DNA from: Sabellastarte sp. h YS-2021
Taxonomy: Eukaryota; Annelida; Polychaeta; Sabellida; Sabellidae
DNA length: 64,000 bases
NCBI GenBank assembly: GCA_964017235.1
Contig: OZ024935.1
Span: 91,015,207 to 91,079,206 of the forward strand
Direction of reading: 5' to 3'
Below the pieces are notes generated by a model. The model saw only the letters and a program-made list of their open reading frames with translations, ran no database searches and was not told the origin of the DNA. How positions within the stretch are numbered: the first letter of the stretch is position 1; the number at the start of each line of letters is the position of its first letter. Positions 7,216 through 63,173 of the stretch are shown one piece after another. A program made the position numbers and the translations under genes.

Positions 7216-7659
7216 ATGTCAGCTGACTTGTCAGTCAGCTGACATTATGTCGTCACTCTGCGGCGTGGGCGTACGCGTCCGCGTACGCGTCCGCGTACGC
7301 GTCCGCGTCCGCGTGAACAACTTCTTCTCCAAAACTACAAGGCCTAGAGATGTGCTGTTTTTTTTAAAAGATACCTTATCTATCGAGGATGAAAAATTGT
7401 TCAAGGCATGCAAATCTGTCTGTTCGTCTGTTTGCTAGAGACATTACAAGGGGGGTACCCCCACCAAAAGTGTGAAAATTTCAACACTTAATCACAATTT
7501 TCTCATTGACTATTGCAGGGATTTCTCTCATATCTTGCATATATGTACTAGGCCACAGGTAGATTCTCTTGTGTGAGTATGAGACCTGGATCTGTCTTAC
7601 TTTTTTTTTAATAAATTTTTTTAATAATTTTTAATGCATTAAAATTCATGAAATCATGC

Positions 7660-9235
7660 ACAAAATCATTTATAACTTGAAAAGTGTTGCATTTAGAGCA
7701 TTTTGTTAAAATATGTTATTCAGCTACTTTTTTCATAGCTACAATATGGTGAGTAAGTTGGGTGCCTGTCTCAATAGCTAAGTGAGTAATAGCTACTTTT
7801 GGGCTTTTCAGTAACTTCCATCACGAGTAAAATCACTTGTAACTTCAAAACTATTGCATTTAGAGAATTTCGTATAAATATGTTATTCAGCTACTTTTGG
7901 GTCAGCTATAACATAGTAAAATTTTAGACCTGTAGCTCATGGCATAGCTGAGTAATAGCTACTTTTAGGTTATCACTGTTGAGTAAATCAGTTGTAATTT
8001 GAAAACTATTGCATGTACAGTATTTTGCTTAAATATGTTGTTCACCTACTTTTGGGTCAGCTATAACATAGTAAAATTTCAGACCTGTAGCTCATGGCAT
8101 AGCTGAGTAATAGCTACTTTGAGGTTATCACTGTTGAGTAAATCACTTATAACTTGGAAATTATTGCATTTAGAGTATTTTGTTTCAATATGTTATTCAC
8201 CTATTTTGGGGTCAGCTATAACATAGTGAAGTTCCAGACCTGTGACTCATTGCATAGCTGAGTAATAGCTACTTTGAAGTTCTCAATGTTGAGCAAATCA
8301 CTTATAATTTGAAAACTATTGCATTTAGAGAATTTCGTATAAATATGTTATTCAGCTACTTTTGGGCCAGCTATAACATAGTGAAATTTCAGATCTGTAG
8401 GTCATGGCATAGCTGAGTAATAGCTACTTTAAAGTTCTCACTATTGAGTAAATCAGTTGTAATTGGAAAACTATTGCATTTAGAGTATTTTGTTGCAATA
8501 TGTTATTCACCTATTTTGGGGTCAGCTATAACATAGTGAAGTTCCAGACCTGTGGCTCATTGCATAGCTGAGTAATAGCTACTTTGAAGTTCTCATTGTT
8601 GAGTAAATCAGTTATAATTGGAAAACTATTGCCTTTACAGAAATTTGTGCAAATATGTTATTCAGCTACTTTTGGGTCAGCTATAACATAGTGAAATTAC
8701 AGACCTGTAGCTCATGGCACAACTGAGCAATAGCTATTCTCAGGCACTGACTGTTGAGTAAATCGGCTATAACTTGAAAAATATTGCATTTGGAGTATTT
8801 TGTTAAAATATATTGTTCACCTACTTTTGGGTTAGCTATAACATAGTGAAATTACAGACCTATAGCTCATGGCATAGCGGAGCAATAGCTATTTTCAGGT
8901 TCTCACTATTGAGTAAATCAGTTGTAACTTGAAAACTATTGCATTTACAGTATTTTGCTTAAATATGTTGTTCACCTGCTTTTAGGTCAGCTATAACAGA
9001 GCAAAAATTCAGACATGTAGCTCATTGCATAGCTGAGTAATAGTTACTTTGAGGTTCTCACTCTTGAGTAAATCAGTAGTAACTTGAAAACTATTACATT
9101 TAGAGTATTTTGTTAAATATGTTATTCACAGACGTTTTGGTCAGCTATAACATAGTGAAATTGCAGACCTCTATGTCATGGCATAGCTGAGCAATAGCTT
9201 CTTTCAGGTTCTCACTGTTGAGTAAATCATTGTAT
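7660..9235 (+). repeat. 155-bp tandem array
   Basis: About ten units of the monomer seen at 1-1155, anchored by 'gttgagtaaatca', 'gggtcagctataacatag' and 'gctgagtaatagctac'. Confidence 0.85.
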
Positions 9236-10050
9236 CCAACCTGTAGGAAATATGGGCTGGGAATCTGTTAATATGGTCCGATTTGACCTTGGAACCCTCC
9301 TTCAAGGTCAAATGAGGATAGCCAAACATAAAAGTGCTTATAACTCGCTTATTATTGGTCCTAGAGGTTTGGAATGAAAACCAACCTATAGAAAATCATG
9401 AGCTGGGAATTTTTTGGTGTGGTCGGATTTCACCTTGGACCCCTCCTTCAAGGTCAAATGAGGATAGCCAAACTTAAAAGTGCTTATAACTCGCTTATTA
9501 TTGGTCCTAGAGGTTTGGAATGGAAAACCAACCTATAGAAAATCATGGGCTGGGAATCTTTTGGTGTGGTCAGATTTCACCTTAGACCCCTCCTTCCAGG
9601 TCAAACGAAGATAGCCAAACTTAGAGTGCTTATAACTCGCGTATTATTGGTCTTGGAGGTTTGGGATGGTAAACCAACATATAGGAAATCATGGGCTGGG
9701 ATTCTTTTGGTGTGGTCAGATTTGACCTGGGACCCCTCCTTCAAGGTCAATTGAGGATAGCCAAACTTACAATTGCTTAGAACTTGCTTATTATTGGTCC
9801 TACAGGTTTGGGATGGTAAACAAGCTACAGGAAATCATGGGCTGGGAATTTTTTTGTGTGGTCGGATTTGACCTTGGACCCCTCCGTCAAGGTCAAACAA
9901 GGATAGCCAAACTTAAAAAGTGCCTATGACTCACTTATTATTGGTCCGAGAGGTTTGGGATGGTATACCATCCTAAATTCTTTGGCTGGGAATCTTTTGG
10001 TATGGTCAGATTTGACCTTTGGACCCCTTCTTCATGGTCGAACGAGGATA
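9236..10050 (+). repeat. 150-bp tandem array
   Basis: Five to six units with 'gcttataactcgcttatta' and 'aaatcatgggctgggaat'. The inverted pair TTTGACCTT/AAGGTCAAA surrounds a 'gacccctcctt' core. Confidence 0.85.
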
Positions 10051-17345: not shown

Positions 17346-17618
17346 TGGCCATATGGGGAGTTTATTTATTTTAATATTTTTTTTTATGTGGCCTTTTTTG
17401 GTTATGTGTGGTACCACGGGTTATTTGTTTCATGTTTGGGGTTGTGTAGGTGTTGAACTTTTTTTTTCTGTTTTTTTCAGTATTTGTACTGAACTGTACT
17501 GAACTGTTATGTTTTGGGAGGGGAATTGGAATAACTTGCAGCTGAATAATTGTTTTTGGAATATTTGGGTGGCCCTGAAAAGGGCCTGGCAGGTCAAAGA
17601 CCCGCCTTGACTGGATGG
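17346..17618. other. Spacer 3' of the MADF gene
   Basis: T-rich on the + strand; no gene or repeat linked to other parts of the window. It probably includes the 3' UTR of the minus-strand MADF gene. Confidence 0.35.
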
Positions 17619-23600: not shown

Positions 23601-26600
23601 TATTCCGATTATGGTGTACTAATAGACTCAGTCTGGTACTTTTTTATGCATTCTGTACATAATTATACATTGTATTATATTCAGTTGCAAAAACAAAAAC
23701 AACTAGAGTTTTATTGCGTTAATACACCTTACCTAGTGGACAAATGCATTTGTCCGGCGCCCTGCCGGTCACGCCAAACGTTAGAAAAAAACGTCCTGAG
23801 CTGGGCTCTGGTCGGGACCGGTAGTGTCCTGTTTACTCGCCAGGTGGCTGTATAGCCCGCCTGCCGGCGCACTGCGCATGCGCTCTTCCTCTTTTTGTTT
23901 GGCGCGAAAGGAGACAGTCAAATTTTTGACAAAGTTTTGTTATTGGATATTATTATTTAAAACAGTTGTTTTGTGCTACGAATTTCGAAGTTCTTAGTAA
24001 AGTATCATGGCATCTCCAGGAAATCTTAAAGGGCAGAGGCGCGGCACGTGTGGCCATGCAATGGCTGCCTTTAACTTACACGAAAAGTGTGCCAGATGTC
24101 GGGACAAGAAAATGGGTGAGGATCCATGTGTTAAAGGTCTGGAATGTGTTATTTGTGAAGGTTTTAGTGATTCCCAGCGGGAGACTTTGTCTACCCCTGC
24201 TTATAAAATCCGTAAAGACAGAAAGTCTGGAGCTTTAGTTTCTCCTAAGGACATTACTGTAATCAGCTCTGTGGAAATGGAAGGCCATGCTTCTCCTCCG
24301 TCTGCGCAGGTTTCTGCGCACGCACCTGCTCCATCCACTTCTTCTGATTCCTCTGTGTCGTTTGTGACTTCAGCCCAGTTAGAGGCTATGTCGGATAGAT
24401 GGACAGAACATTTCGCGTGTTTTGAAGCGCTCTTGTCACGAGGAAATGTGTTCAGCATGCCTAAATCTTCTGCTACAGTTTCAGCTCACCCTGTCTTGTC
24501 TGATAAACCTTTCATTGATCCATCTGCCCGGCCTACCGGTCCGGTAGTGAACCCGGCAGAGCAGGATCTTAAGGTGACAAAAGCTGATGCCAAAAAGAAA
24601 AAGGCTTCTAAGCCTAAGACTGTTAAAGCTAAAAGCACTAGTAGTGCTCAGCCGGTGCCTGCTGCCACCATCCCCGGTCTGGGCGATGCTGTGCAGGAAC
24701 CAGTCTTCCAACCTGTTTCATCCTTTGACACCTCTCTTGCCGATCAGACAGTACAAGCTACCGGTCAAAGTGCTTCCAGGGTATCTTCCGTCCCTCAGAC
24801 CGTTCATGAGTCTTTTGTCACCGGTCCTGATGTGGGATATGATGTGGCACCTAGTTCTCTTGCCGGTGCCGGTTCCAACCCCCTACCGGAGCAAGTTTAC
24901 CGGGATCCTCCGGTACAGGATATCTCTGATGACGGACTCTCTGATGAAGATAATTCTTTGGTTGAAGAAGGTGAAGTGTCTTCGGATAACCTAGAAAAAC
25001 AAGAACAAACTGAAGATATGACATTTAGGGAGACTGTGAGGTCTGTGCGTTCGTTTATGGGGTGGGACTATATCCCGGTGTTTGAAAGCGACCTAGCTGA
25101 GCCCGACAAGTCAAACAACCCCTGGAGGGGCAAGCACCCCAGGAAGCCTGCTCGTATCTCAGTAGCCATGCCACTGGACGATTGGCTTTTCCAAAAGTTA
25201 GAGAAACTTAATACCACAGTGGCTGAAGGATACCCTTCGAGAGCGCATGATTCCGCAGGCCTTAAAAAGGATCAATTTATAAAGATTCCTAAGTCACAAG
25301 GCAGATTGTATCAAATGCACACCCTGAGACAAGATGGTCCGCACCGACCAGGGAAAAGCCTATTTAGCTGGAGCAACGGTGAGGCTAAGGTCAACTCACA
25401 GTTTCCAAGGATTGTGAAGGCTTCGTATCCACCCTCTGGCCCACCTTTCAGGCCCATTTCCCAGGAGTACCTGTGAAGGTGGGAGCGTTGTGCTCGGGAA
25501 GGAAGCTACGTTGTTAACAGCGCCGCTGGATTTAATCGCTGTGCTTCTGAGCTACAGGAGAGAATTGCTTCAAATGTGTCTTTTTTGTGCGGCAAACTCA
25601 ACAAGGGAAAAGCACCTAAGGACGTTTCCCAATCTCTTAGAGACATTAAAGACTTGCTAGCCTTCCACCAGAACGTTTCCATGGCTATGGGAACGGCATT
25701 GCAGCACTTGGCGGACAGTTTGTTTGTCCATTTAGCAAACCTCATTCTTCTCCGCCGTGACTCATATTTAGAGTTTGTAAAACCAGGAATCAAGCCAGAC
25801 ACTTGGAATCTTCTTAGGAACGCACCCATGTTTGGTTATGGCCTATTTCCGGACTCGGTGCTGGGTGCTGCTGAACAGGATGTTATTAAGCATGAGTCCA
25901 CCGGAGTCGCTCCAGGACCCGGTCCGGGTGCCTCCCAGCGCTCCAATTGGAGAGGGAACTTTAGATATAAGCCATATGATAGGAAAGACTCGCAGCGACG
26001 CACTGAATCTTCTGAACAAGAGCTCCAACCATGGAGGCAGTTCTCCAGGAATAGAGGTAGAGGACGAGCACGGGGCAGAGCAAACTCTCGTTTCTCTAAA
26101 TCCCGTGGCTTTAAGCCATATAAATGACAATCACAGTTTTGCAACCCAGCAGGTTCTCAGTGCTCCGGGTTTGAAAGTAGTAAAGCAAAGTGGTCCTCTA
26201 GAACAGACTTTAAATTGTCAGAGTTGCAAACAGAGTGTGTCATGCGTAGGTGTTGTAATTCCTGTTCTTTCTGTAACTTCTCCCGGGCAGCCGCAAAAGA
26301 AAGGCCTAAGACCCGGTCTTTGTCGGAACAGAATAAAGCTTGTAGAAGGTGTTTCTTGTGTAAATCATTGTCTTTTTGCCCCATCTGTTCAAAATGTCCC
26401 ACATGTTGTCACAGAGACCAGTGTTGGGGGAAGGCTTCAGAACTTCTGGCAAGTTTGGCAAAAGTTGGGTTCCAATCCCAGGGTAGTGTCAGTTCTGAAG
26501 GACGGGTATTCTCTTCCATTCAGGGAAAGGCCACATCTCAGCCGCTTTCCCTTGGTTGTGAGCAAGTACGCAAATCCCACCAAAAGCAAGGCCCTCGTGG

Positions 26601-29600
26601 CAGCTCTATCCGCCCTAAGACAAAAACAAGCAGTGGAAAAGGTGGTTGTCCAGTCTTCCCTGGCTTTTTACAACCGACTTTTTCTGGTCCCAAAACCCAA
26701 TGGGAAATGGAGACCAATTCTGGATCTAAGCAAACTCAATCTTTTCCTAGCCACCGGCACTTTCAAGATGGAAACCCTGGAGACAATTCGTTTGTCTCTG
26801 CAAAAAGGGGAATGGGTCACGTCGCTGGATTTCAGCGACGCCTACTTCCACATTCCCATAGCTCAAAGGTCCAGGAAGTTTTCACCTAAACAAGGTCAGT
26901 TTTCAGTTCACTTCCCTTCCCTTTGGTCTGGCCACGGCTCCCTTGGAATTCACCAAAGTGGTCAAAGAGGTCAAGTTGATAGCTCAAGCCCGGGGTATCT
27001 GGATCCACCAGTACCTCGACGACTGGTTGTTACGAGCCCCTTCCCAGGCAACTTGCCTACAACATACCCGGATCCTCTTGGACCTGTGTCAAGAGTTGGG
27101 TTGGTTGGTAAACATGCAAAAATCAGAGCTGGTTCCCCAACAGGTTTTCAACTTCGTCGGTTACCGGTTCGACCTGTTGACCGGTCGAGTCTTACCCACT
27201 CAGGACCGGTGGTCAACTCTCAAAGAGAAGGTGCAGTTCATCAAGAACAGGAGTTCTTGCACCGTCCGGCAGTTCATGTCTCTGATAGGTCTTCTGACTG
27301 CCACAGAGAAGCAAGTTTGGTCAGGGCGCCTTCATATGAGGCCTATTCAGTGGCACTTGAAACGCCATTGGCATGTACCGGAGATCCTAGAGAAGGTGAT
27401 TCCGGTGCCCGTGTCACTCCATCCTCATTTAGATTGGTGGCTGAAAGAAGAAAACGTGCTTCAGGGTCAATTTTTGCATCCGCTTCAGCACGCTCTACAA
27501 GTCTTTACAGACGCTTCAAACGAAGGTTGGGGCGCTCACTTAGGAGACTCCACTGCAAGAGGCGTTTGGTCAGAGCAAGAACAAAGGCTTCACATAAATT
27601 TTCTGGAGCTCAAAGCTGTCTATCTGGCCCTAAAGAGCTTCGAGCATCTTTGTCGGGGTCAAATTGTTCTGATTGCCACAGACAATACAACGGTGGTCTC
27701 TTACATCAACAAGGAAGGGGGTATAAGATCAGGCTCTCTTTGTGCCCTCCTGTGGAGAATTCTGACCTGGTGCCATTCCAAGGGAATAGTCCTGAGGGCC
27801 CGGCACATTCCGGGTCGCTTGAATGTGATAGCCGACAAGCTGTCGAGACACAATCAGGTGATTCAAACAGAGTGGTCGCTGGATCCACAGGTGTTCAGTC
27901 AGTTGTGCTCCAAGTGGGACCTTCCTCGGGTAGACTTGTTTGCCACCAGTTTCAATCACAAACTCCCCAGGTTTGTTTCACCGGTTCCGGATCAAAAGGC
28001 CTGGGCAGTGGACGCTCTAAGTCTATCATGGGAGAACCTGGATGTGTATGCCTTTCCTCCGGTATCTCTTCTCAACCAGGTGGTCTCCAAGATGGTGGAT
28101 CAAGGTTTTCTCAGAATGATTCTAGTGGCTCCGGGATGGCCGAACATGCCCTGGTTCTGGGACCTAGTACGGCTTTCAGTTCAGGTGCCCTATCAGCTCC
28201 CACTTCAGAGGGACTTGGTGACTCAACCGTTCAACGGGGTTCTTCACCGGAACCTCAGCAATCTGAACCTACATGCTTGGCTCCTCGAGCCTGCTCCATC
28301 AAGCAACAACGTTTCACTGAGGAAGTGGCAACACGAATTGAGGCTCCTCAGAGACTCTCAACCAGAGCCGTGTATAACTTAAAGTGGGCCATTTTTGTTA
28401 AATGGTGCGATTCGCATGAGGTGGACTTCAGGTCGCCCTCTATAAGCCAAATCGCGGAATTTCTTTTGTATCTGTTCAAAGAAAGAAACCTGCAGCCTAG
28501 CACAATAGATGGCTATAGAACTGCTATTGCGGACATGGTGGGCAACGATAGGTTAGCCATTAGTAAGGATGAGAACCTATCCCGTCTTTTGGACAGTTTT
28601 CACAGGGATAAACCCAAGGGCAGGAGGGGCATCCCTTCTTGGAATCTTTCACTGGTGCTCCATCAGTTGACTAAGGCTCCCTTTGAGCCCCTGCGGAAAG
28701 CCTCTCTTAAGCACTTGACTTTTAAGATGGTTTTCCTGTTAGCTTTGGGTTCAGGCAAGAGGCGTAGTGAGGTTCATGCCTGGCTTTTCAAGAATATCAG
28801 ACACCAGGAAAATTGGACTCAAGTCTCTTTTTATCCTTCTCCCAGCTTCATTTCCAAGAACCAGTTGGCTAAGGAAGGTTCAGCCTCGGTGGCTCCGGGG
28901 GTTATCCCTGCCTTAGCTCCCTCATTGGACAGGTCCCTTAGAGAAGATAAGTCCCTCTGTCCTGTCAGAGCCTTGCGCTACTATCTAGATAGAACCAAGG
29001 ACATTCGAGTGGGTAAGGAGTTGGTTTTCGTATCCTTCCGCCTGGGTTTTCAGAAGGATATCGTCCCAGCTACAATTTCTTCTTGGATCAAGCAGACAGT
29101 TCTCTTATGTTATCAGCTGTCAGATGAAGAGGCCCAAAACCTACATCAAGTGAGAGCTCATGATGTCCGGGCTTTTGCAGCTTCTAAGGCTTTTCAGGGA
29201 GGGGTCTCGTTGGACCAGATCCTCTCAGCCTGTCACTGGAAAGCTCACAACACTTTCACACAGTTTTACCTCAAGGACTGGGCTTGGGCTGATTCCGAGC
29301 TTTACCATTTGGGTCCCATTGTGGCTGCTCAGCAAGTCCACAGGGATTAGCTTGGGGTTGTTCATGATGTGTACATATGTATATATATATATATAAAAAA
29401 AAAAAGGGGGCTCTTGGATGGCCATGATCCCAAGTGGTTCCAGGGGTTTCCCCGGTATTCCTTGGTCCTGACTTCCTTCCTCTACTTGGTATCGGATCTT
29501 TTTCCCCTCTCTCTGCCTGTGCACTTCGTTGGAGTTTTGGCACAGTTTCTTTCAAAAGAAAGGGGGTGGGGTGGGGGGGGGGGGGGGGGGGGGTGACAGA

Positions 29601-32600
29601 GGTGTTCCTAGGGTAGGTTTATTTAACCTTTACCGGGTCCACTTCAAGAGATATCAAGAAAGTTGGGGAGTTCACCTTGTGGCTACCCACCATCCACTGG
29701 GTAGTTATTCTGCATCTGTCCACTAGGTAAGGTGTATTAACGCAATAAAATAGAAAATTTAATAGTAAATTAAATTTTTATAAGTTAATACCTTACCTAG
29801 TGGACAGGGGGAGTCCCACCCTACCTTCCCCGCTATTCTAAGCCAAAGGGGGTTTTTCTCTAAGGTAGACAACAAAAAGAGGAAGAGCGCATGTGCGAGC
29901 ATGCGCAGTGCGCCGGCAGGCGGGCTATACAGCCACCTGGCGAGTAAACAGGACACTACCGGTCCCGACCAGAGCCCAGCTCAGGACGTTTTTTTCTAAC
30001 GTTTGGCGTGACCGGCAGGGCGCCGGACAAATGCATCTGTCCACTAGGTAAGGTATTAACTTATAAAAATTTAATTTACTATTAAATTTTCTAATTGCTT
30101 TGCAAGAGAAAAAGAAATTGTTTTTGCATAGCAAAAACAAAGCATTCCAAAAGTATTAATGAATCTGTAGAAATGACCATCTTCCTCTATTTAATATGTA
30201 TTTTCCATTTAACCCAAAATACAAGGTTTCGTAGATGAATGTGTATATTTTTTTTTGTGTTTTACGCAGAAATTTAAGATGGCCGCCAAAATTGGCAGGA
30301 AAGCGATTTTTGGGAAAAGTCACCAGTAGACTGCATATACCCTGTGGATAAAAAAAATTCGTTGATATCACTCTAGCTCGCTCCGTTTCCGAGATAAACG
30401 TGTTGTTATGTTTTACGCAGAAATTCAAGATGGCGGGAAAACGATTTTTGGGGCAAGTCACCAGTAGACTCTGCAGATACCCTGCGGGTCAAAAATTCTC
30501 TAGCTCACTCAGTTTCCGAGATAGACATGTTTTTTTGCGTTTTACGCAGAAATTCAAGATGGCAGATACCCTGCGGGTCAGAAAATTTGTTGAAATCGCC
30601 CTAGCTCACACGGTTTCTGAGATAAACCCGTTTTTGCGGTTTACACAGAAATTCAAGATAGCCGCCAAAAGTGGCGGGAAAACAAATTTAGCAAAACCTT
30701 GCCAGTAGACCCTGCATATACCCTGTGGGTCAAAAAAAAAATTTTGTCACTCTACCTCGCTCCGTTTCCGAGACAAACACGTTTTTGCATTTTATGCAGA
30801 AATTCAAGATGGCGGCCAAAAATGGCAGGAAAATTTTGGGGGGAAATTCATCAGTAGACTGCAGATACCCTGCGGGTCAAAAATTTCTTTGAAATCACTC
30901 TGGCTCGCTCCGTTTTTCTGCTTTACCCAGAAATTCGAGATGGCCACCAAAAGTGGCGGGAAAACGATTTTGGCGAAAACTTGCCAGTAGACTCTCCATA
31001 TACCCTATGGGTCAAAATTTCATTGAAATCGCTCTAGCTGGCTCCGTTTCTGAGATAGATGCATTTTCGCTTTTTATGCAGAAATTCAAGATGGCCACCA
31101 AAAGTGGCGGGAAACAATTTTTGCCAAAACTTGCCACTAGACTCTGAAGATACTCTGTGGGTCAAAAATTTCATCAAAATCGCTTTAGCTCACTCCATTT
31201 CCGAGATAAACGTGTTGTTATGTTTCATGCAGAAATTCAAAATGGTCACTAGAAGTGGCAGGAAAACGATTTTGGTGAAAACTTGCCACTAGACTCTGTA
31301 GATACCCTGTGGGTAAAAAATTTCGTCAAAATCGCTCTAGCTCGCTCCTTTTCCGAGATAAACATGTTTTATGCCGAAATTTGAGATGGCCGCCAAAGTG
31401 GGGGGAGAACAATTTTGGCGAAAACTTGCCAGTAAACTCTTAATATACCCTGTGGGTCAAAAATTTCGTTAAAATCGCTCTACCTCACTCTGTTTCCGAG
31501 ATAAACACATTTTTGCACTTTACGAAGAATTTCAAGATGACCGACAAAAGTGGCAGGAAAACTATTTTTTGGGGGAAATTCATCGGTAGACTCTGCGGAT
31601 ACCCTGTGGGTCAAAAATTTTGTCGAAAAATCGCTCTAGCTCGCTCTGTTTCGAGATAAACGTGTTTTTCCGTTTTACCCAGAAATTCAAGATGGCCAAC
31701 AAAAGTGGCAGGACAACGATTTTGATGAAAACTTGCCAGTAGACTCTCCATATAACCCGTGGGTCAAAAATTTTGGTGAAATCACTCTATCTCACACCGT
31801 TTCTGAGATAAACGCATTTTTGCATTTTACACAGAAATTCAAGATGGCCACCATACATGGCAGGAAAACAATGTTTTGGGGAAATTCACCAGTAGACTCT
31901 GCAGATACCCTGTGAGTCAAAAATTTTCATCGAAATCGCTCTAGCTCCCTTAATTTGAAACTTAACAGGATGCGAGGGCACCACCTAGGCTAGGTTGCTT
32001 TCGAAATTGGTGCCATTTTTAAAAACAAGATGGCCACCATGGCCACCATCTTGAAACTCTATTTCTGTTCTCTAACTCGAAGACCTTTCTGCTGATCAAT
32101 TTGAAACTTAACAGGGTGGTAGCGCATCACCTAGACTAGGTTGCTTTCGAAATTGGACCCAAAACATGTTTTTAAATTGTGAATGCTTATCGGGATAACT
32201 TAAAAAGCACTTCACCTAATCACATGAAATTTGGCAAGTAGGTTTGAGGTATAGATGTCTGGATATCGTCAACTTTTGAGAGTGATCTGATACAAAATGG
32301 CCAACTTATTAACGATTAACTAAACTTGAAAATTTTATTTCATAAAAATGTAAATATACTATACCATATGAAAACACTTGGGTAGGCGTGGCTTGGCGTT
32401 CGGTGACCGCCACGTACACCGTACATAGAATTTAAATATATGAGGGGAGACCCTCTTTAAACCTATATACTTGCTACCTTTGACCCCTGGTGACCTAATT
32501 CACTCTGCCATGCGCAGTAATACAGAAATAGTTCATTCTTTTTGTGGCGGTTGAACTATCAACAGGCGTTTTGCTACCTTTTTAAAAAGACCTGCATTTA

Positions 32601-35600
32601 CACGTTTTTGAAGCTCTGTGAGTACTTCTTTGCTGTTTTATTCACTTTTCCTCCATTTTATTTACCTTTTACTTCAATTTCTGGTGAATTTATTGTATAC
32701 TTTGGGCATTATTTACGTATTTCTTCATAATTCGTATTATCGCTCATCTGGTCACGTGGTGTTAGAATGTCGGATTACCTTTGGAGATATTCATTTCCTT
32801 TGTAAATTAATTCTTTTTATGCACTTCTACAGGCATTTTTATTTTAATTTACGGTATTCCTTCATTCTTTCAACGAAATTCTTCGTTTCTCCACGTATTT
32901 TGACCGTATTGACTGTGCATTGTTTTTCACGTAGTTACCTATTTGGTATTTTCGCTCATCGGGTCACGTGGTGTCAGAATGTTGGACTTCCTTTGGAAAT
33001 AATCATTTCCGCGGTGAATTAATTCATTTATGCACTTATACAGGCATTATAATTCACCTTTTACGGTTTTCCTTCATTCTTTTTACGAAATTCTTCGTTT
33101 CACCGCGTATTTTGACCATATTTTTGAGCTTTTTACGAATCATTCACCAGGTCATGTGACGATGACGTCACATCCAAAATGGAGGTCAACCGATCGGTTG
33201 TCAGAAAATATTCATTTTCATAGTGATTACAGCATTTCCAGGTTTGTTTATACATTCCTTCTACATATTTCTTTGAATATTATTATGTCAGAGCATAATG
33301 TGTAATATTTTCAATTGTTAACGCATTTTTCATAGCGTAACATTACGGTATCTACTGCCTACCATTCACGGTTCTTTACTTGTTCAGGCCCTTTCATTTG
33401 ACATTTCTGGAATTCGGATCCTGGTTTCAGTGTTTTGGGGTTCAATTCTGAGCCTAGGGTCTCCATTTTAGCCTTTCTCCACCTTCAATTTTGGAGGTTG
33501 GGGGTTTACGGCTTCTGGGGAGGACTTTGTCTTCCACCTTTTGGAGATCCATTTCACTGTTGCTGGTTTCCTACATTCCAATTTTATGTCAATTGGTCAT
33601 TTGGTTTCTCAGTCCATTTTTAGTCCTTTGGCCTCTTTTGTGCCTAGGCTTCAGTCTAATCAGACTGCTTTTTGGACTGGGATTACCTTCTCAAGACCAT
33701 TCATGTTCAGGGTCCCTTAGAAGAGTTTATCAGTTGAATCCAACTGATTTTGCTACTTCCTTAACTCTACTCCATTCATTTTCTAAATCTAGAAAATTTT
33801 TGTTTGGGGTTTGGTGGAAATCTTCTGTTACTCAACAGCTTTCTATTGTGTTTTCACCATTTTTTAGATCTGACGATCAATGGGCACATCTCCCTTTTGG
33901 GTATGTTGGGGGTTCCTCTGTCTACAGTTAACCTTTAGGCAGACTTCAGGAACCCTATTCCAATTTTTTTTTTTTGTGCCAGTCTGTTGGACTATATGGG
34001 TGCTTAGGACTTCATCCTTTAATCTTCTCCTCAGAAGATTTTCAAGCTTCCTGTCTAACAGAATTAGGGAATAAATTTGACTGCTCTTTTCTTTTGATCA
34101 GTCTTATTTTTCTCTAAGTCAACCACTTTTCCAGGCTTAGAAGTTCCTTCATGAGGCCAGATACTTACTTTCTGTCACTCATTCATTTTGGGATTTTCTT
34201 ATTCTAAGTTTTGTAGGTTGGGTAATTACCCAATTTTCCTTCTAAAACTTAGTTTTGCCAAGTACAAAATCCTCTTCAGAGGGTTTTTTGGGTTGACTTC
34301 TTCAGGTTTCCGGACCTGGGATCTAGCCTGAAGGGGTTCTTAAGACCTTCTCTTCCCTAGGTAGAGTTCCTCTGCTATTAGGGGAGATCTGAGATGGACC
34401 TTAGGGTCCTTATTTCTGTGGGATTTTTTCCTTCAGTCCTGTTTTGTTGATCACTTATTCAAGTTGATTGACAAGGCAATACTTTCTCAGTGGTCTTTTT
34501 CATCCACCATTCTTTGGACATCTGTTTCAATGGGTCTTCTAGCTACATTTTAGCTGGTTGATCTATGGCCTTTTTTCAGCCATCTTTGCACTTTATTTTG
34601 AGAGATTTCTTTATCCATTTCCCTCACTTGTGCTTAGTCACTTGGTAGGGTTAATTGGTCCTTTTTTGGTCTTATGCTGTTTCTTGTGATGTCTCTCTTG
34701 GGAGACCATTTCTTCTCACATATAACAGTATAAGCAGAAGGCTTTCATGTGGCCCTTACTCAAGGTGCCTCTTTTAAGCTATCTGCATTAGCCTCTTGAG
34801 GCACACCAATTAGGACCTTTTTTCCTCCCATCCAGGGAGTTTTCTCTCTAACTTAGTGCTTTTAGGATGTGGTTCCTTTCCAGGTTCCAACATTCTGATG
34901 GTGGAATGCCTTCCAGAGGTAGAGGCTCAGCCTCAACCTCTATTATGGTGTCCTTCAGGAGATAAGAGGTTGTTTTACTCAAATTTTCACTCTTACTTCC
35001 AGATCCCTCCACTTGCCAGTGGGAGGTCAACTGATTCCAGTGGTCTCTCAGATTCCACTTTCCTGATTCTTTCAGCTCTTCTCCACAGAAGAATGCTGTT
35101 CTTTGTCATTCAGTCTCACACTGTCTGTTCACATGAGCAGTTCAAGTATCTTGAGCTCCTGTTTTCCTGATTTTTCAGGGCATTATCCTTGACAAAGATA
35201 TACTGGAAACCACAATTAGATTTATATCTTTTCCTGGTTTTCCAGACTATCAGGATGCAACTTATCAGTTGATCATTTTCTCAATTGGCCAGTGGACCAC
35301 TTCTCTTCCTCAATTTGCCTCCTTTCTCTCCTTTGGCTCCTTTGGTTCACTCTTGCTCATAGTTTTGCTTTTGGGCAAGGTGTACCACTTTGTGGCAATG
35401 CCTTATGGTCTAGCCACTAGCCTTTCAGGATTTACTTCCTTAGTCAAGGAAGTAAGGAAAGTTGGCTTTGAGGTTGGGCATCTCAGTGCACATGTGACTA
35501 CAAATTGGCTCATTAGAGCCAATAGTTGTCAGAGGCTCTTTTTTCAACTCTATTAGAGTTGACTTTCATCTTGGAGTGGTTCTTAGCAGGAAGTATTTAC

Positions 35601-38600
35601 ATCTGTTTCTTTAACAGGTCTCCTTCCTGGGTCAGGTTCTTAACCTGTTTCTTAATTACCTCTCTAACTGGGCTCCTTATTTCTTTTGGCTTCCACTTGG
35701 AAGCCGCTTCTTCAAGGTCCCTACACATGACACTTCTTCTGTGTCATCTCAGGACACTTGATTTTCCTTCTCAAAGGTGCTCTGGATTTTCCATTCCTTG
35801 ATCCTTCTATGAAGGTTCATTCAAGATGGTACTATCCTGGGAACTATGTCTTTGCATACCTCCCTTTAATTCCCTAGTTTTTACATCTACTTTCATGGAT
35901 GTTTCACTGCGGGGTTTGGGAGTTCTTTGTGCTCTGTGGACCACCTAAGGTCTATTTTTGATGTAGCAGTCCAGTCTGTGCATCAGTTCTAGAGCTCATA
36001 GCTGTCCTTTTTGCTCAGACATTTGTTCCTCTTTTATCCTTTCATCAAAGGATCATCCTTTCAGCCTCAAACAACTCAGATGTCTTGTTCTCAAGACATT
36101 TGTTCCTCATTTGTAAGGGATTCTTCAGATAGTCCAGGTAACACTGTTGTCTGGGCTTTCTTTTTATCAAGACAGCTTCCACTCTTGGGACATGTGTATT
36201 TTGGCATCTTTTGCCATTATTTTTACAAGAACAAGTCTGTTCTTCCACCTCATGTTCCAGGGGCATGAATCTTTGGCAGACCATCTCTGGAGGTCTTTTC
36301 TCACCTTTCATATAAGGTGGCCCTTCAATTCTTGGATCTTCAGATGGTAGTCTCAGACTTCTCATCTTATTTAGATCTCTTTTGCCATGTGATTCAATCA
36401 CAAGCTGCTCTTACATGTGCCTCCTGTGCTAGATCCTTAGGCTCTGGCAACAGATGCCCTGGAGTGTTTTGGTCCGGAGTACTTATTTTACTCCTTCCCT
36501 CCTTCAGCTCCTTGTCCTCTATGGCCATGAAGTTAATCAACTTTCAGAGCTGTATCATTATTCTTGTAGCCTTTCCTGGTAATTGCCAGGTTTGGCCTCA
36601 AGATCTCCTTTAAGAAAGCCATTGGCTCTTCCTCTTATTCTTTTATAACAATCTCATCTAGAGTTTTGTTATTTATTTTTATGGAGTTCCTTTCTTCAAG
36701 CTTTCTGGCTGAAGTCTCCTTTAACAAGAATTTTCACAGGAGGGGTCTTGGAGGATTTTTATCCTCCATAACTGTCTATGAAGCAATGTGGAACTGCTTC
36801 AAAAAACTTGTGAGAAACATGGCCACTCTGCTATGCTTCAACTGTCCCATTTATTGCTGTTTGTTCCTTTTAAGGAATTATTTTTCAGACAATAGGGATA
36901 CAGGTCAGCTCTCTCCAGGTACTACTTGGAGTTGGGTTCTTATAGGAGCTAGGAAGTCTCATTTAGAGCTTCTTTAAGTCCAGAATTAGGGTAGTCGTCA
37001 CCTACCTGTTTGGTACTTAATCCTTGGTTCTGCAGGCTCTTACCAAGGCTCCTCTTGAACCTTTTCATTTGCTGAGCCAAGTTTTTCACATTTTAGACAG
37101 TCTTTCTTACTCCCTTTCTTTGGGAAGGAGAAGGAGTGATTTTGTTTCCTTTATTTAAAGGTTTTCTCTCACTCTTTAGGGATGGCCTAAGTCATCCTTA
37201 AGTCAGATCTTACTTTCCTGGCTTAAGCCAGTTTTCTTCAGAAGGCTCTTCCTGCTTTGACTTTTTGTCTTTGGTCAGGATGACTTAGAAGACCTCTCCT
37301 TTTTTTTTCAGTCAGATTCCTAAGATACTTTCTATCTAGCTATTCTGACTTAAAAGGATTTCTTCTTGGTCTTTCTTCTGAAGTCCAAGAGGGTGATATT
37401 GCTGCTCAGACAATATCTTTTTGGATAGCACTTTATCCTTTATTCCCTCAATCTCTGTTCCACAGAGAATGCATCTCTTCATGGTGTCAGGGCTCATCAT
37501 GTCAGGGCACAGGGGTCTTCCTGGTCCTTTAGGGGTGGAATCCCACTCCTAGTCAACATGAGATCCTGCACGTGGAAGAGCCATTCCACTTTTACATCCT
37601 TCTATTTTAGGAATGTATTTCCTTCAGAGATGTTGTTCTTAAGAATCTCTTATGATTTCTTAAGTGGAGTGGACATCCTTTTCCACTCAGCCATTTCTCT
37701 CTCTTCTACTTAAATTCCTCAATTTAAGTCCATCTGAAACTTTTAGTTTCAGAAAAAGGGGGGTGGCATTTCCCTTTTAGGGAATCTATTCTTCATCTCT
37801 ATTTTCAGAACCGTGCTTCTTAGTGCCTCTGGGCATGTTCCTATTCTGAGCACAGGGCATACTTATGCCTTCTCCTTTGAGCTGACCTAATAGGGTGTAG
37901 ACAGCAGTGCTGAAGTTAGTGCAGTGGTTAATGCTACTCACTTAGCTCACTCGAGTTATTGCTTCAGCACAGAGGTTTTGGGTTCAATTGCATTGCACTA
38001 GGAAGTATCCTTTTGTAGCAATTTAACCTTAGGGTGGTTTTCCTCAGTCTGTCTTTTTCCCACCATCCTTCCATGTGGGCATTCAACCCAAGTGTTTTCA
38101 TATGGTATAGTATATTTACATTTTTATGAAATAAAATTTCATATTTTTAAATGTAAAATGCATTTTTATGAATAAAAATGTATATACTTACCATATGAAA
38201 ACAGCAAATCACCCTCCCGCCTGCCCCGCTTTTAAAGACCTTTTTCCAGCATTTATGTTTATTCACAAAAAGAATGAACTATTTCTGTATTACTGCGCAT
38301 GGCAGAGTGAATTAGGTCACCAGGGGTCAAAGGTAGCAAGTATATAGGTTTAAAGAGGGTCTCCCCTCATATATTTAAATTCTATGTACGGTGTACGTGG
38401 CGGTCACCGAACGCCAAGCCACGCCTACCCAAGTGTTTTCATATGGTAAGTATATACATTTTTATTCATAAAAATGCATTTTACATTTAAAAATATGAAA
38501 TTTAATGAAAAAATGAAACATCTTTAATATCTCAAAAATGGTGCGAAATTATTGACCTGCAGGGTACATGCACAGTCATCTGGCACATTTTGTTAAAAAT

Positions 38601-41600: not shown

Positions 41601-44600
41601 TTTGAATACAAGATTGTTATGTCCATAGCTCGCTTGGTATTGCATTTGGGACTGATAGCTTTGTCAGTACATGAGTAATAGCCATTTAGGTACTTCATTG
41701 TGTATTTTCAGTACTACTTTTGAGTAATTTGCTCCTATCTCCTTAACCGTGCGAGATAGAGCGATTTCGGCAAAATTTTCGACCCACAGGGTATCTGAGG
41801 AGTGTACTCTTTGCAATTTTCAAAAAATTTTCCCCTCCCCAAAAATGGCGGCCATTTTGAATTTTCGAATTTTTGCCAAAAATGGCAAAACACTAATTTG
41901 CTTCTATCTCCTTAACCGTGCGAGATAGAGCGATTTCGTCAAAATTTTCGACCCACAGGGTATCTGAGGAGTGTACTCTTTGCAATTTTCAAAAAATTTT
42001 CCCCTCCCCAAAAATGGCGGCCATTTTGAATTTTCGAATTTTTCCCAAAAATGGCAAAACACAAATTTGCTTCTATCTCCTTAACCGTGCGAGATAGAGC
42101 GATTTCGTCGAAATTTTCGACCCACAGGGTATCTAAGGAATGTAATATTTGCAATTTTCAAAAAATTTTCCCCTCCCCAAAAATGGCGGCCATTTTAAAT
42201 TTTCGAATTTTTGCCAAAAATGGCAAAACACAAATTTGCTTCTATCTCCTTAACCGTGCGAGATAGAGCGATTTCGTCAAAATTTTCGACCCACAGGGTA
42301 TCTGATAAGTGTACTCTTTGCAATTTTCAAAAAATTTTCCCCTCCCCAAAAATGGCGGCCATTTTGAATTTTAGAATTTTTGCCAAAAATGGCAAAACAC
42401 TAATTTGCTTCTATCTCCTTAACCGTGCGAGATAGAGCGATTTCGTCGAAATTTTCGACCCACAGGGTATCTAAGGAATGCAATCTTTGCAATTTTCAAA
42501 AAATTTTCCCCTCCCCAAAATTGGCGGCCATTTTGAATTTTCGAATTTTTGCCAAAAATGGCAAAACACAAATTTGCTTCTATTTCCTTAACCGTGCCAG
42601 ATAGAGCGATTTCGTCAAAATTTTCGACCCACAGGGTATCTGAGCATTATACTCTTGGTAATTTTAAAAAAATTTTCCCCTCCCCAAAAATGGCGGCCAT
42701 TTTGAATTTTCGAATTTTTGCCAAAAATGGCAAAACACAAATTTGCTTCTATCTCCTTAACCGTGCGAGATAGAGCGATTTCGTCGAAATTTTCGACCCA
42801 CAGGGTATCTAAGGAATGCAAGCTTTGCAATTTTCCCAAAATTTTCAGCTCCCCAAAAATGGCGGCCATTTTGAATTTTCGAATTTTTGCCAAAAATGGC
42901 AAAACACAAATTTGCTTCTATCTCCTTAACCGTGCGAGATAGAGCGATTTCGTCGAAATTTTCGACCCACAGGGTATCTGAGCATTGTACTCTTGGTAAT
43001 TTTCAAAAAATTTTCCCCTCCCCAAAAATGGCGGCCATTTTGAATTTTCCAATTTTTGCCAAAAATGGCAAAACACTAATTTGCTTCTATCTCCTTAACC
43101 GTGCGAGATAGAGCGATTTTGTCGAAATTTTCGACCCACAGGGTATCTAAGGAATGTAATATTTGCAATTTTCAAAAAATTTTCCCCTCCCCAAAAATGG
43201 CGGCCATTTTGAATTTTCGAATTTTTGCCAAAAATGGCAAAACACTAATTTGCTTCTATCTCCTTAACCGTGCGAGATAGAGTGATTTCGTCGAAATTTT
43301 CGACCCACAGGGTATCTAAGGAATGCAATCTTTGCAATTTTCAAAAAAATTTTCCCCTCCCCAAAATTGGCGGCCATTTTGAATTTTCGAATTTTTGCCA
43401 AAAATGGCAAAACACAAATTTGCTTCTATTTCCTTAACCGTGCCAGATAGAGCGATTTCGTCAAAATTTTCGACCCACAGGGTATCTGAGCATTATACTC
43501 TTGGTAATTTTAAAAAAATTTTCCCCTCCCCAAAAATGGCGGCCATTTTGAATTTTCGAATTTTTGCCAAAAATGGCAAAACACAAATTTGCTTCTATCT
43601 CCTTAACCGTGCGAGATAGAGCGATTTCGTCAAAATTTTCGACGCACAGGGTATCTAAGCAATGCAATCTTTGCAATTTTCCAAAAATTTTCCCCTCCCC
43701 AAAAATGGCGGCCATTTTGAATTTTCGAAGTTTTGCCAAAAATGGCAAAACACAAATTTCCTTCTATCTCCTTAACCATGCGAGATAGAGCGATTTCGTC
43801 GAAATTTTCGACCCACAGGTATTTGAGCATTGTATTCTTGGCAATTTAAAAAAAAATTTCCCCTCCCCTAAAATGGCGGCCATTTTGAATTTTCAAATTT
43901 TTGCCAAAAATGGCAAAACACAAATTTGCTTCTATCTCCTTAACCATGCGAGATAGAGCGATTTCGTCGAAATTTTTCAACCCACAGGGTATCTAAGGAA
44001 TGTAATCTTTGCAATTTTCAAAAAATTTTCCCCTCCCCAAAAATGGCAGCCATTTTGAATTTTCGAATTTTTGCCCAAAATGGAAAAACACAAACTGGCC
44101 TTAACCGTGCAAAATAGAGTTATTTTGTTGAAATTTTCGACCCATAGGGTATCTAAGAAATGTACTCTTGGCCATTTTCAAAAAAATTTCCTTTTCCCAA
44201 AAATGGCGGCCATTTTGAATTTTCAAATTTTTGCCAAAAATAGAAAAACAGGAATTTGCTTCTATCTTCTTAACCGTGCAAGATAGAGTGATTTCGTCAA
44301 AATTTTCAACCCAACCAATGCAAAAAGGCATGAAGCTGAAATAATTTACATCTACACTAACAAATATTTAAGCATCATTGATATATTTTACAAATGAAAC
44401 AGGGTCTTGTAAGACTACTGTACAATTTGGGCAAAAGGTTCATGGGTGGACATTACACATGATAATGTGTGTTCTTCTATGCTATCCTGTTTCTATTCGC
44501 ATCTACTATCAACAGGGCGGCCTATTTCTAGTTTCTAAATGTTTTACAGAGACCGAATTTCAAATGTTTGAACCAAACTTTGTTTTCAGGGCAGTCAAGG

Positions 44601-59480: not shown

Positions 59481-62400
59481 ATGTCAGCTGACTTGTCAGT
59501 CAGCTGACATTATGTCGTCACTCTGCGGCGTGGGCGTCCGCGTCCGCGTGAACAACTTCTTCTCCAAAACTACAAGGCCTAGAGACGTGCTGTTTTTTTT
59601 AAAAGATACCTTATCTATCGAGGATGAAAAATTGTTCAAGGCATGCAAATCTGTCTGTTCGTCTGTTTGCTAGAGACATTACAAGGGGGGTACCCCCACC
59701 AAAAGTGTGAAAATTTCAACACTTAATCACAATTTTCTCAGTGACTATTGCAGGGATTTCTCTCATATCTTGCATATATGTACTAGGCCAGAGGTAGATT
59801 CTCTTGTGTGAGTATGAGACCTGGATCTGTCTTACTTTTTTTTTAATAAATTTTTTTAATAATTTTTAATGCATTAAAATTCATGAAATCATGCACAAAA
59901 TCATTTATAACTTCAAAAGTGTTGCATTTAGAGCATTTTGTTAAAATATGTTATTCAGCTACTTTTTTCATAGCTACAATATGGTGAGTAAGTTGGGTGC
60001 CTGTCTCAATAGCTAAGTGAGTAATAGCTACTTTTGGGCTTTTCAGTAACTTCCATCATGAGTAAAATCACTTGTAACTTAAAAACTATTGCATTTACAG
60101 AATTTCGTATAAATATGTTATTCAGCTACTTTTGGGTCAGCTATAACATAGTAAAATTTTAGACCTGTAGCTCATGGTATAGCTGAGTAATAGCTACTTT
60201 TAGGTTATCACTGTTGAGTAAATCGCTTATAACTTCAAAACTATTGCATTTAGAGAATTTCGTATAAATATGTTATTCAGCTACTTTTGGGTCAGCTATA
60301 ACATAGTAAAATTTCAGACCTGTAGCTCATGGCATAGCTGAGTAATAGCTACTTTTAGGTTATCACTGTTGAGTAAATCGCTTATAACTTGGAAACTATT
60401 GCATTTACAGTATTTTGTTTCAATATGTTATTCACCTATTTTGGGATCAGCTATAACATAGTGAAGTTTCAGATCTGTGGCTCATTGCATAGCTGAGTAA
60501 TAGCTACTTTGAAGTTCTCACTATTGAGTAAATCACTTGTAACTTAAAACCTATTGCATTTAGAGAATTTCGTATAAATATGTTATTCAGCTACTTTTGG
60601 GCCAGCTATAACATAGTAAAATTTCAGACCTGTAGCTCATGGCATAGCTGAGTAATAGCTACTTTTAGGTCATCACTATTGAGTAAATCAGTTGTAACTT
60701 CAAAACTATTGCATTTACAGTATTTTGCTTAAATATGTTGTTCACCTACTTTTGGGTCAGCTATAACATAGTAAAATTTCAGACCTGTAGCTCATTGCAT
60801 AGCTGAGTAATAACTACTTTGAGGTTCTCACTATTGAGTAAATCAGTTGTAATTGCAAAACTATTGCATTTAGAGAATTTAATCTAAATATGTTATTCAG
60901 CTACTTTTGGGTCAGCTATAACATAGTAAAATTTCAGACCTGTAGCTCATGGCATAGCTGAGTAACAGCTACTTTTAGGTCATCACTATTGAGTAAATCA
61001 GTTGTTACTTGAAAACTATTGCATGTACAGTATTTTGCTTAAATATGTTGTTCACCTACTTTTGGGTCAGCTATAACATAGTAAAATTTCAGACCTGTAG
61101 CTCATTGCATAGCTGAGTAATAGCTACTTTGAGGTTATCACTGTTGAGTAAATCGCTTATAACTTGGAAATTATTGCATTTAAAGTATTTTGTTTCAATA
61201 TGTTATTCAGCTACTTTTGTGTCAGCTATAACATAGTAAAATTTCAGACCTGTAGCTCATGGCATAGCTGAGTAATAGCTACTTTGAGGTTATCACTGTT
61301 GAGTAAATCACTTATAACTTGTAAACTATTGCATTTAGAGTATTTTGTTGCAATATGTTATTCACCTATTTTGGGGTCAGCTATAACATAGTGAAGTTCC
61401 AGACCTGTGGCTCATTGCATAGCTGAGTAATAGCTACTTTGAAGTTCTCACTGTTGAGTAAATCAGTTGTAATTGGAAAACTATTGCCTTTACAGAAATT
61501 TGTGCAAATATGTTATTCAGCTACTTTTGGGTCAGCTATAACATAGTGAAATTACAGACCTGTAGGTCATGGCACAACTGAGCAATAGCTATTCTCAGGC
61601 ACTGACTGTTGAGTAAATCGGCTGTAACTTGAAAAGTATTGCATTTGGAGTATTTTGTTAAAATATATTGTTCACCTACTTTTGGGTTAGCTTTTGGGTT
61701 AGCTATAATATTACAGACCTATAGCTCATGGCATAGCGGAGCAATAGCTATTTTCAGGTTCTCACTATTGAGTAAATCAGTTGTAACTTGAAAACTATTG
61801 CATTTACAGTATTTTGCTTAAATATGTTGTTCACCTACTTTTAGGTCAGCTATAACAGAGCAAAAATTCAGACATGTAGCTCATTGCATAGCTGAGTAAT
61901 AGTTACTTTGAGGTTCTCACTCTTGAGTAAATCAGTTGTAACTTTAAAACTATTACATTTAGAGTATTTTGTTAAATATGTTATTCACAGACGTTTTGGT
62001 CAGCTATAACATAGTGAAATTGCAGACCTCTATGTCATGGCATAGCTGAGCAATAGCTTCTTTCAGGTTCTCACTGTTGAGTAAATCATTGTATCCAACC
62101 TGTAGGAAATCATGGGCTGGGAATCTGTTAATATGGTCCGATTTGACCTTGGAACCCTCCTTCAAGGTCAAATGAGGATAGCCAAACATAAAAGTGCTTA
62201 TAACTCGCTTATTATTGGTCCTAGAGGTTTGGAATGAAAACCAACCTATAGAAAATCATGAGCTGGGAATTTTTTGGTGTGGTCGGATTTCACCTTGGAC
62301 CCCTCCTTCAAGGTCAAATGAGGATAGCCAAACTTAAAAGTGCTTATAACTCGCTTATTATTGGTGCTAGAGGTTTGGAATGGAAAACCAACCTATAGAA

Positions 62401-63173
62401 AATCATGGGCTGGGAATCTTTTGGTGTGGTCGGATTTCACCTTAGACCCCTCCTTCCAGGTCAAACGAAGATAGTCAAACTTAAAGTGCTTATAACTCGC
62501 GTATTATTGGTCTTGGAGGTTTGGGATGGTAAACCAACATATAGGAAATCATGGGCTGGGATTCTTTTGGTGTGGTCAGATTTGACCTGGGACCCCTCCT
62601 TCAAGGTCAATTGAGGATAGCCAAACTTACAATTGCTTATAACTCGCTTATTATTGGTCCTACAGGTTTGGGATGGTAAACAAGCTACAGGAAATCATGG
62701 GCTGGGAATTTTTTGTGTGGTCGGATTTGACCTTAGACCCGTCCGTCAAGGTCAAACAAGGATAGCCAAACTTAAAAAGTGCCTATGACTCACTTATTAT
62801 TGGTCCGAGAGGTTTGGGATGGTAAACCATCCTAAATTCTTTGGCTGGGAATCTTTTGGTATGGTCAGATTTGACCTTTGGATCCCTTCTTCATGGTCGA
62901 ATGAGGATATTGCATTTATAGTATTTCTTTAAATATTTTTAACCTACTTTTTACACTTAAACAATTACCTTGTTACTTTATTTCATAATACCATTTGCAG
63001 GGCACAGCTTTTTTGTCCTTTTCTTCTGTCAGCTTCGGAATATCTTTCGAACAACTGTATTTCTGTACAGCCCTTTCCCTGATAATTATGCTTTCCTCTC
63101 ATTATCACCATCACAGATCAAAAACATTCAGTCAGCTGACACAGTGCCCGTTCACGGGCACTCTCCTCTTGTT
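59481..63173 (+). mobile_element. Complete Helentron-like element, sister of 7216-10333
   Basis: Head ATGTCAGCTGACTTGTCAG, a short CGTCCG repeat, a 155-bp array (59900-62095), a 150-bp array (62096-62910), the tail palindrome and the hairpin GTGCCCG-TTCA-CGGGCAC (63144-63161). Long blocks are almost identical to 7216-10333, but the 155-bp array holds about four more units and the CGTCCG repeat is shorter. Non-coding. Confidence 0.78.

Follow-up and report, generated by a model that had tools for sequence, protein, structure and literature searches.

DIRS1-like retrotransposons are bounded by inverted terminal repeats (ITRs) and carry an internal complementary region (ICR) that pairs with both element ends, a layout described in PMC3266345. 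Here, we describe a member of this group in a 64,000-nucleotide stretch of the genome of the annelid Sabellastarte sp. h YS-2021 (contig OZ024935.1, positions 91,015,207 to 91,079,206 of the forward strand; hereafter the window). The element occupies positions 32333..38500 of the window on the + (sense) strand and is densely set with short hairpins, one class of which shares the four-nucleotide loop ANUC (ANTC in DNA). We hold, at a little better than even confidence, that it is a young, high-copy, non-autonomous DIRS1-like member whose sense strand is selected to fold and whose ANUC loops would be read by Gag. It resembles described DIRS1-like elements in its ITRs, in an ICR complementary to both ends, in the reverse transcriptase (RT) and tyrosine recombinase of a coding relative and, for the single copy checked, in an insertion that shows no evident target-site duplication. 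Unlike them, it is non-autonomous, and its clade combines an ANUC array with folding over wide stretches. Among the titles listed in our literature searches, none describes such an array or folding.

Three further systems invite comparison. Genome-scale ordered RNA structure in RNA viruses is paralleled by folding energies below those of shuffled sequence along most of the element, in coding and non-coding members alike; here, however, the structure belongs to a tyrosine recombinase (YR) retrotransposon clade and not to two copies of another clade from the same genome. The packaging signals of single-stranded RNA viruses (MS2 type, PMC6281560) are likewise many short stem-loops, dispersed along the genome, with variable stems and a shared loop motif, whereas the element is a retrotransposon with the motif ANUC instead of (x)xYA, clustered towards the 5' end. 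Hairpins produced by template switching (PMC8794818) have similar perfect short stems and multi-base changes in an arm, but the element's clade differs from them in a loop signature confined to one strand and in long-term conservation.

Hairpin density in the element interior

The first-pass annotation had singled out the segment 33640-37790 as the interior of a DIRS element rewritten into perfect short hairpins far above chance density. We counted perfect stems with loops of 0-5 nucleotides (nt) and took the mean of 100 dinucleotide shuffles as the expectation. The segment contains 18 stems of at least 7 base pairs (bp) against 1.33 in shuffles (standard deviation 1.20, maximum 5), 12 of at least 8 bp against 0.45, and 26 of at least 6 bp against 5.61; shuffled sequence does not reach this density. 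Four-nt loops dominate, as had been noticed, with 10 of the 18 stems, while loops of 0, 1, 2, 3 and 5 nt account for 2, 3, 1, 2 and 0. All five AATC loops listed earlier are where they were placed, although two sit on short stems (5 bp at 36535, 6 bp at 33658) and a third, at 37539, has a G.T pair in its stem. The neighbouring DIRS copy at 24007-29350, said to lack comparable density, is much weaker (6 stems of at least 7 bp against 1.73 expected, 1 of at least 8 bp against 0.57), yet not flat.

The folding energy of 120-nt windows was expressed as a z-score against dinucleotide shuffles (fold z). Over 33640-37790 it averages -2.41 (+) and -2.05 (-), with n=34 and 56% of values below -2; over the 24-29 kb DIRS the averages are -0.21 (+) and -0.25 (-). 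Within the whole window, raw hairpin density peaks in a 169-bp tandem satellite at 41726-44313 (15.4 copies) because a single unit, itself containing hairpins, repeats there; an effect of this satellite on the segment was rejected, since the peak at 42-44 kb is satellite and 33640-37790 is not.

A young, high-copy element and its relatives

The hairpin-rich segment forms the interior of a DIRS1-like element, structurally complete and non-autonomous, that is delimited by end words common to 29/30 (left) and 28/30 (right) of the fetched copies. The left ITR (32333..32546, +) is 100% complementary over 185 nt to the right ITR, which together with an extension spans 38264..38500 (+). The ICR (38086..38203, +) pairs with both ends: 38086-38139 with the left end (54 nt, 100%) and 38131-38203 with the right end (73 nt, 99%). 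Behind the left ITR, a 212-bp leader unit is tandemly duplicated (32728..33122, +), which doubles two ANUC hairpins. Islands of RT and recombinase were detected in the element by tblastn and its longest open reading frame (ORF), stop to stop, has 157 amino acids, in keeping with the earlier view of the segment as DIRS-derived and non-coding. None of the known RNA families was found in the element. No target-site duplication is evident in L018 (labels of this form denote other genomic copies), the sole copy checked, which is inserted in a 133-bp satellite.

In the 1.786 Gb genome, 36 of 1341 candidate places were scored and gave 38 matches at 98-100% identity, 35 of which span the whole 4.15 kb (window copy included). 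A 36-nt interior word has 492 genome matches with at most three mismatches (control 0), and no mismatch occurs among the 100 matches listed. Across 30 aligned copies, 54 variable columns common to at least two copies mark subfamilies. The element is thus a young, high-copy and recently amplified one: near-identical copies imply recent amplification with the hairpins inherited. Together with the identical ITRs and the presence of many of the hairpins in coding relatives, they show that the hairpins were inherited and not made in the window copy. To call the interior rewritten is therefore misleading, given ITRs that are 100% identical, many near-identical copies and hairpins shared with coding relatives. 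An assembly artefact was rejected because many places in the genome hold near-identical copies and hairpins recur in diverged ones, and post-insertion decay because of the identical ITRs and shared hairpins.

Diverged copies were found through the same ITR end, mostly at different spacing. Non-coding ones are L047, L049, L048 and L050 (identity to the element 0.965, 0.953, 0.896 and 0.775), whereas a coding lineage, whose members have long ORFs or pieces of such ORFs, comprises L044 (identity 0.682), L045, L046, L053 and the deleted copies L051 and L052. ORF1 and pol are both represented by ORFs in L044, which matches RVT_1 (7.1e-19) and, weakly and below the Pfam cut-off, Phage_integrase (1.7e-4); a Pfam scan of its pol at E 0.01 gave no match named methyltransferase. 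The translated ORF1 has a basic, RG-rich C-terminal tail that would be compatible with RNA binding. The copies share many of the hairpins, as the first-pass annotation had proposed to check, including coding relatives with the same ends. Stems of at least 7 bp number 20 in the non-coding element (1.6 expected) and 12 in the coding L044 (2.07). Fold z (+/-) is -1.71/-1.13 in L044, -1.58/-1.08 in L045 and -1.59/-1.09 in L046, lower in magnitude in the deleted L051 (-0.71/-0.49) and L052 (-0.97/-0.73), and close to zero in the hardly folded other-clade copies L035 (-0.47/-0.40) and L034 (-0.09/-0.02). L034 was left out as a stem-count control because a 78-nt AT run inflates its counts, accounting for most of its 68 zero-loop stems. 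By RT protein, no relatives outside the host genome appeared in the viral or genome contigs searched; matches of an ITR 18-mer in viral contigs (L001-L003) were set aside, their number being about that estimated by chance.

The window's other DIRS copy (24001-29350, +) belongs to another clade and has long ORFs with RVT_1, RT_RNaseH and Phage_int_SAM_1. The degenerate pattern FTK.VKEV, which fits its protein, has 1893 genome matches (control 4).

A sense-strand class of ANUC hairpins

We defined the class by a stem of at least 5 bp and a loop ANUC on the sense strand, mostly with an A-U/U-A closing pair. On perfect stems of at least 5 bp, ANTC loops number 11 in the element (0.09 expected), 10 in L047 (0.10), 12 in L049 (0.05), 6 in L048 (0.14) and 4 in L050 (0.09). 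The coding lineage carries 9 in L044 (0.12), 8 in L045 (0.10), 4 in L046 (0.05) and 7 in L053 (0.08), and the deleted copies 5 in L051 (0.11) and 6 in L052 (0.01). On the same kind of stem, the reverse-complement loop GANT is absent from all 11 family members, and ANTC loops on perfect stems are absent from the other-clade copies L035 and L034. When four-nt loops of the element, L050, L044 and L053 were pooled, ANTC was the top three-letter loop motif (31/78 against 0.57 expected); L051 and L052, relatives of L044 outside this motif scan, carry such loops too. With G.U pairs allowed, 38 distinct ANUC hairpins were collected, closed by A-U/U-A in 35 cases and free at the second loop position (T11 G10 C9 A8). 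These 38 stems differ and have only the loop and self-complementarity in common, which makes palindromes bound as double-stranded DNA unlikely.

The class is concentrated in the leader and 5' gag. In L044, whose ORF1 protein has its first ATG at 816, 7/10 ANUC hairpins fall within the first 1251 nt (leader and early ORF1; p=0.0005), as do 8/13 in the corresponding part of the element when the duplicated leader unit is counted once (p=0.003). Perfect stems of at least 5 bp with four-nt loops are in excess in the leader (32547-33640), at 7 against 0.5. Genome-wide, a leader-hairpin pattern finds 580 matches when loop position 1 is A (reversed-pattern control 5) and 19 when it is another letter (control 12), a count that covers this loop position only, at one hairpin; position 2 is T, G or A among the 100 matches listed. 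These data show the core ANUC class to be a sense-strand, lineage-wide feature.

An ANTC hairpin of 5 bp also occurs outside the element, in a satellite with ggtcaAATCtgacc (1441, 1734, 9722, 10012, 62582 and 62871, - strand).

Conservation and covariation of the stems

Covariation was examined in nine copies for those seven ANUC helices of L044 that lie in its 5' region, with a slid pairing partner and 500 shuffles as controls. Pairing is retained in 96.0% of 347 cells, compared with 33.8-51.2% when the partner is slid, and 9/43 pairs are altered on both sides, compared with 0-3. In none of the 500 shuffles was any of three measures (paired percentage, double changes, covariation score) as high. 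The core class keeps its pairing through two-sided changes in most of the comparisons. From L044 to the element, 46/51 aligned ANUC pairs still pair: 35 are unchanged, 5 changed on both sides to another Watson-Crick pair and 1 to G.U, 4 became G.U by a one-sided change and 1 went from G.U to Watson-Crick, while 5 are broken. In L048, 41/49 pairs still pair. Followed from the element to L044, L046 and L053, ANUC stems are paired at 0.91, against 0.62 in long-range control stems. Identity between L044 and the element is 0.714 inside ANUC hairpins and 0.642 outside (p=0.07), and between L044 and L051 0.893 and 0.731; since it is only modestly higher inside, pairing is kept more than letters are. 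Loop positions 1-4 of homologous ANTC loops differ in 0.21, 0.34, 0.11 and 0.33 of comparisons.

The single hairpins (all +) are as follows. In the leader, the one at 32783..32798 (AUUC, one G.U pair) is kept in L044 and duplicated at 32995..33010 (AAUC); the one at 32872..32887 (AUUC), whose two outer pairs are A-U in the element and U-A in coding relatives, is duplicated at 33085..33098 (AUUC). The hairpin at 33204..33219 (AUUC) shows two compensatory pairs relative to L044, and 33439..33454 (AUUC, one G.U pair) is not kept there. At 33652..33667 (AAUC), a pair that is U-A in the element is C-G in L049, L050, L044 and L046; inspected by eye in the 100 matches listed of 564, it is C-G/U-A in 94, U.G in 4 and C.A in 2, and the difference may represent a single old double change. 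The 8-bp stem at 33729..33748 (AAUC) is kept in L044 with two compensatory pairs and a shorter loop, and that at 33778..33797 (AAUC, 8 bp) is not present in the coding copies L044, L046 and L053. The hairpin at 33825..33838 (ACUC) is invariant in nine aligned copies, coding and non-coding; L050 has AUUC. Further downstream lie 35432..35455 (AGUC, 10 bp), with one mismatch in L044 and absent from L035, L034 and the 24 kb DIRS; 36227..36244 (AGUC, 7 bp), whose stem L044 keeps under a loop AGGU; 36530..36543 (AAUC, 5 bp), with one A.C pair in L044; 37530..37551 (AAUC, nine pairs, one G.U), which in L044 has lost two pairs and has a loop AAUU; and 37943..37958 (ACUC, one G.U pair), mostly deleted in L044.

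The remaining hairpins behave less uniformly. Seven of the 18 interior stems have a homologous stem of at least 7 bp in at least one of L044, L046 and L053, and 2/18 sit in sequence absent from all three. The hairpin at 37733..37753 (+) pairs AAA/UUU in the element, GGG/CCU (one G.U) in L044 and AGG/CCU in L046; that at 35504..35523 (+) closes with C-G in the element and U-A in L044 and L046, the next pair being U.G in L046. When all local stems of at least 6 bp (ANUC included) were compared with long-range control stems from the element to L044, compensated changes made up 22/114 changed pairs against 112/1383 (p=0.00026) and stems were kept in 14/36 cases against 58/393 (p=0.00075).

Interpretation of the hairpin array

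An array that is confined to one strand, specific in its loop, independent of stem sequence, covarying and 5'-located points to a sense strand that is folded and read at the loop. That this sense-strand structure is under selection appears likely from the comparison of copies, and the core hairpins look like working parts of the element and not like random damage. The folded strand would be sense RNA or a single DNA strand of the same sense, and a protein would recognise the shared loop, the element's Gag (ORF1) being the likeliest candidate. By analogy with dispersed viral packaging signals (PMC6281560), from which we infer recognition by Gag, the array may serve as a dispersed packaging or assembly signal; for Gag binding or packaging as the use of the structure, a candidate role, we would put the chances somewhat below even. 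The element, freed from coding, would keep about half of the coding relative's signals, possess others of its own in the duplicated leader unit and further hairpins, and be carried by Gag, RT and recombinase made elsewhere. More tentatively still, a YR retrotransposon clade might carry a virus-like dispersed packaging code, an ANUC array read by Gag, of which a non-autonomous offspring has kept a part, duplicated and extended it, and spread to about 490 places. The ANUC loop on covarying stems is in any case a testable candidate signal for how DIRS RNA is chosen and non-autonomous copies are carried; it occurs in the clade's coding members as well as in the non-coding ones, and was not observed in either of two copies from a different clade. 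It would be a non-viral case of selection acting on the structure of an element.

Several observations weigh against this reading. Only 4/18 interior stems have ANUC loops, and both the motif and the 5' cut were chosen after looking. The ten ANUC hairpins of L044 fare unevenly in the element (5 with stem and loop kept, 2 with the stem only, 2 broken, 1 deleted); the old copy L050, whose leader aligns badly, keeps few ANUC stems, with 26/43 pairs (60%) still pairing, about the control level. Loop position 4 is poorly kept, being as variable as position 2. One of the nine sequences itself supplied the structure tested for covariation, the compensations amount to few independent events, all sequences come from a single genome, and the number of pair types was reached by 180/500 shuffles. 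Pairwise changes do not favour G.U over A.C (17:24 from the element to L044, against 283:251), and the larger excess of G.T than of A.C in one-mismatch stems is, by ratio, not seen in L044 or L050. Folding of the leader is weak (fold z -0.85 on +, -0.34 on -, n=9), the difference in fold z between strands is slight (p=0.03 in L044, 0.054 in the element, 0.16 in L053, 0.70 in L050), and the other-clade copy L035 has some excess of stems of at least 7 bp (6 against 1.53 expected). Among local stems, there was no excess over controls in stems kept from L044 to L046 (22/31 against 304/452, p=0.84) or from the element to L050 (15/29 against 170/362, p=0.7), nor in compensation from L050 to L044 (11/105 against 166/1545, p=1), and non-ANUC local stems are weakly conserved (paired 0.68-0.71 against 0.62 in controls).

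This weak conservation also fits the strongest competing account, in which RT or replication repeatedly switches to the nascent strand and one hairpin arm neutrally overwrites the other, so that hairpins build up once coding constraint has been lifted and the same mechanism perfects them. Such switching can create and maintain hairpins (PMC8794818), and it agrees with the perfect Watson-Crick stems and short loops, with the larger number of stems in the non-coding element than in L044 and with the reversal of neighbouring A-U pairs to U-A at 32872, which altered both arms. Multi-base changes are clustered in one arm at 35432 (compared with DNA of the L035 clade) and at 36388, leaving room for template switching; copying of the reverse-complement arm is suggestive at these two sites. 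A pattern for an older-looking arm beside element sequence had 0 matches. The free second letter of the loop, the 5' clustering and the absence of GANT are, however, not predicted by switching unless it is strand-specific and sequence-directed, and in L035 and L034, which belong to another clade, perfect stems carry no ANUC loops. As the origin of the array we find it rather unlikely. Both causes proposed by the first-pass annotation survive in part. For the ANUC class, the evidence supports selection for a structured genome; some of the non-ANUC hairpins may owe their origin or their perfect pairing to hairpin-templated repair or template switching, which by itself does not explain the one-strand loop signature or its conservation.

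General compaction of the RNA, shielding it from antisense pairing, RNA interference (RNAi) or responses to double-stranded RNA and leaving loop identity incidental, would account for structure across most of the element. In Dictyostelium, inverted terminal promoters of DIRS-1 give rise to sense and antisense RNA, and RNAi controls the element (PMC5633606), which lends this account some plausibility. The roughly 100-fold excess of ANUC loops and their 5' clustering remain unexplained by it, and we judge it improbable for the array as a whole; to the remaining local hairpins, general compaction and template switching have probably both contributed.

That the hairpins act instead as folded single-stranded DNA at the cDNA or circle stage (strand transfer, recombinase, circularisation) is very improbable, for although pairwise changes show no preference for G.U and DIRS elements are thought to pass through circular cDNA (PMC3266345, PMC5633606), one-mismatch stems show a larger excess of G.T than of A.C in most copies, and the published model already assigns circularisation to the element ends and ICR (PMC3266345).

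Other features of the window

At 17546-17591 (-), a match to the Rfam Histone3 3' UTR stem-loop (35.8 bits, gathering threshold 34) suggests a histone gene or its remnant nearby. Two similar blocks at 7216-10050 and 59481-62909 both contain the 30-nt hairpin atgtcagctgactTGTCagtcagctgacat (at 7216 and 59481) and an identical 16-nt palindrome (at 7629 and 59864), together with satellite arrays of 155 bp and 146 bp of like unit (7825-10050 and 60059-62909). The two blocks look like one mobile unit that carries satellites.

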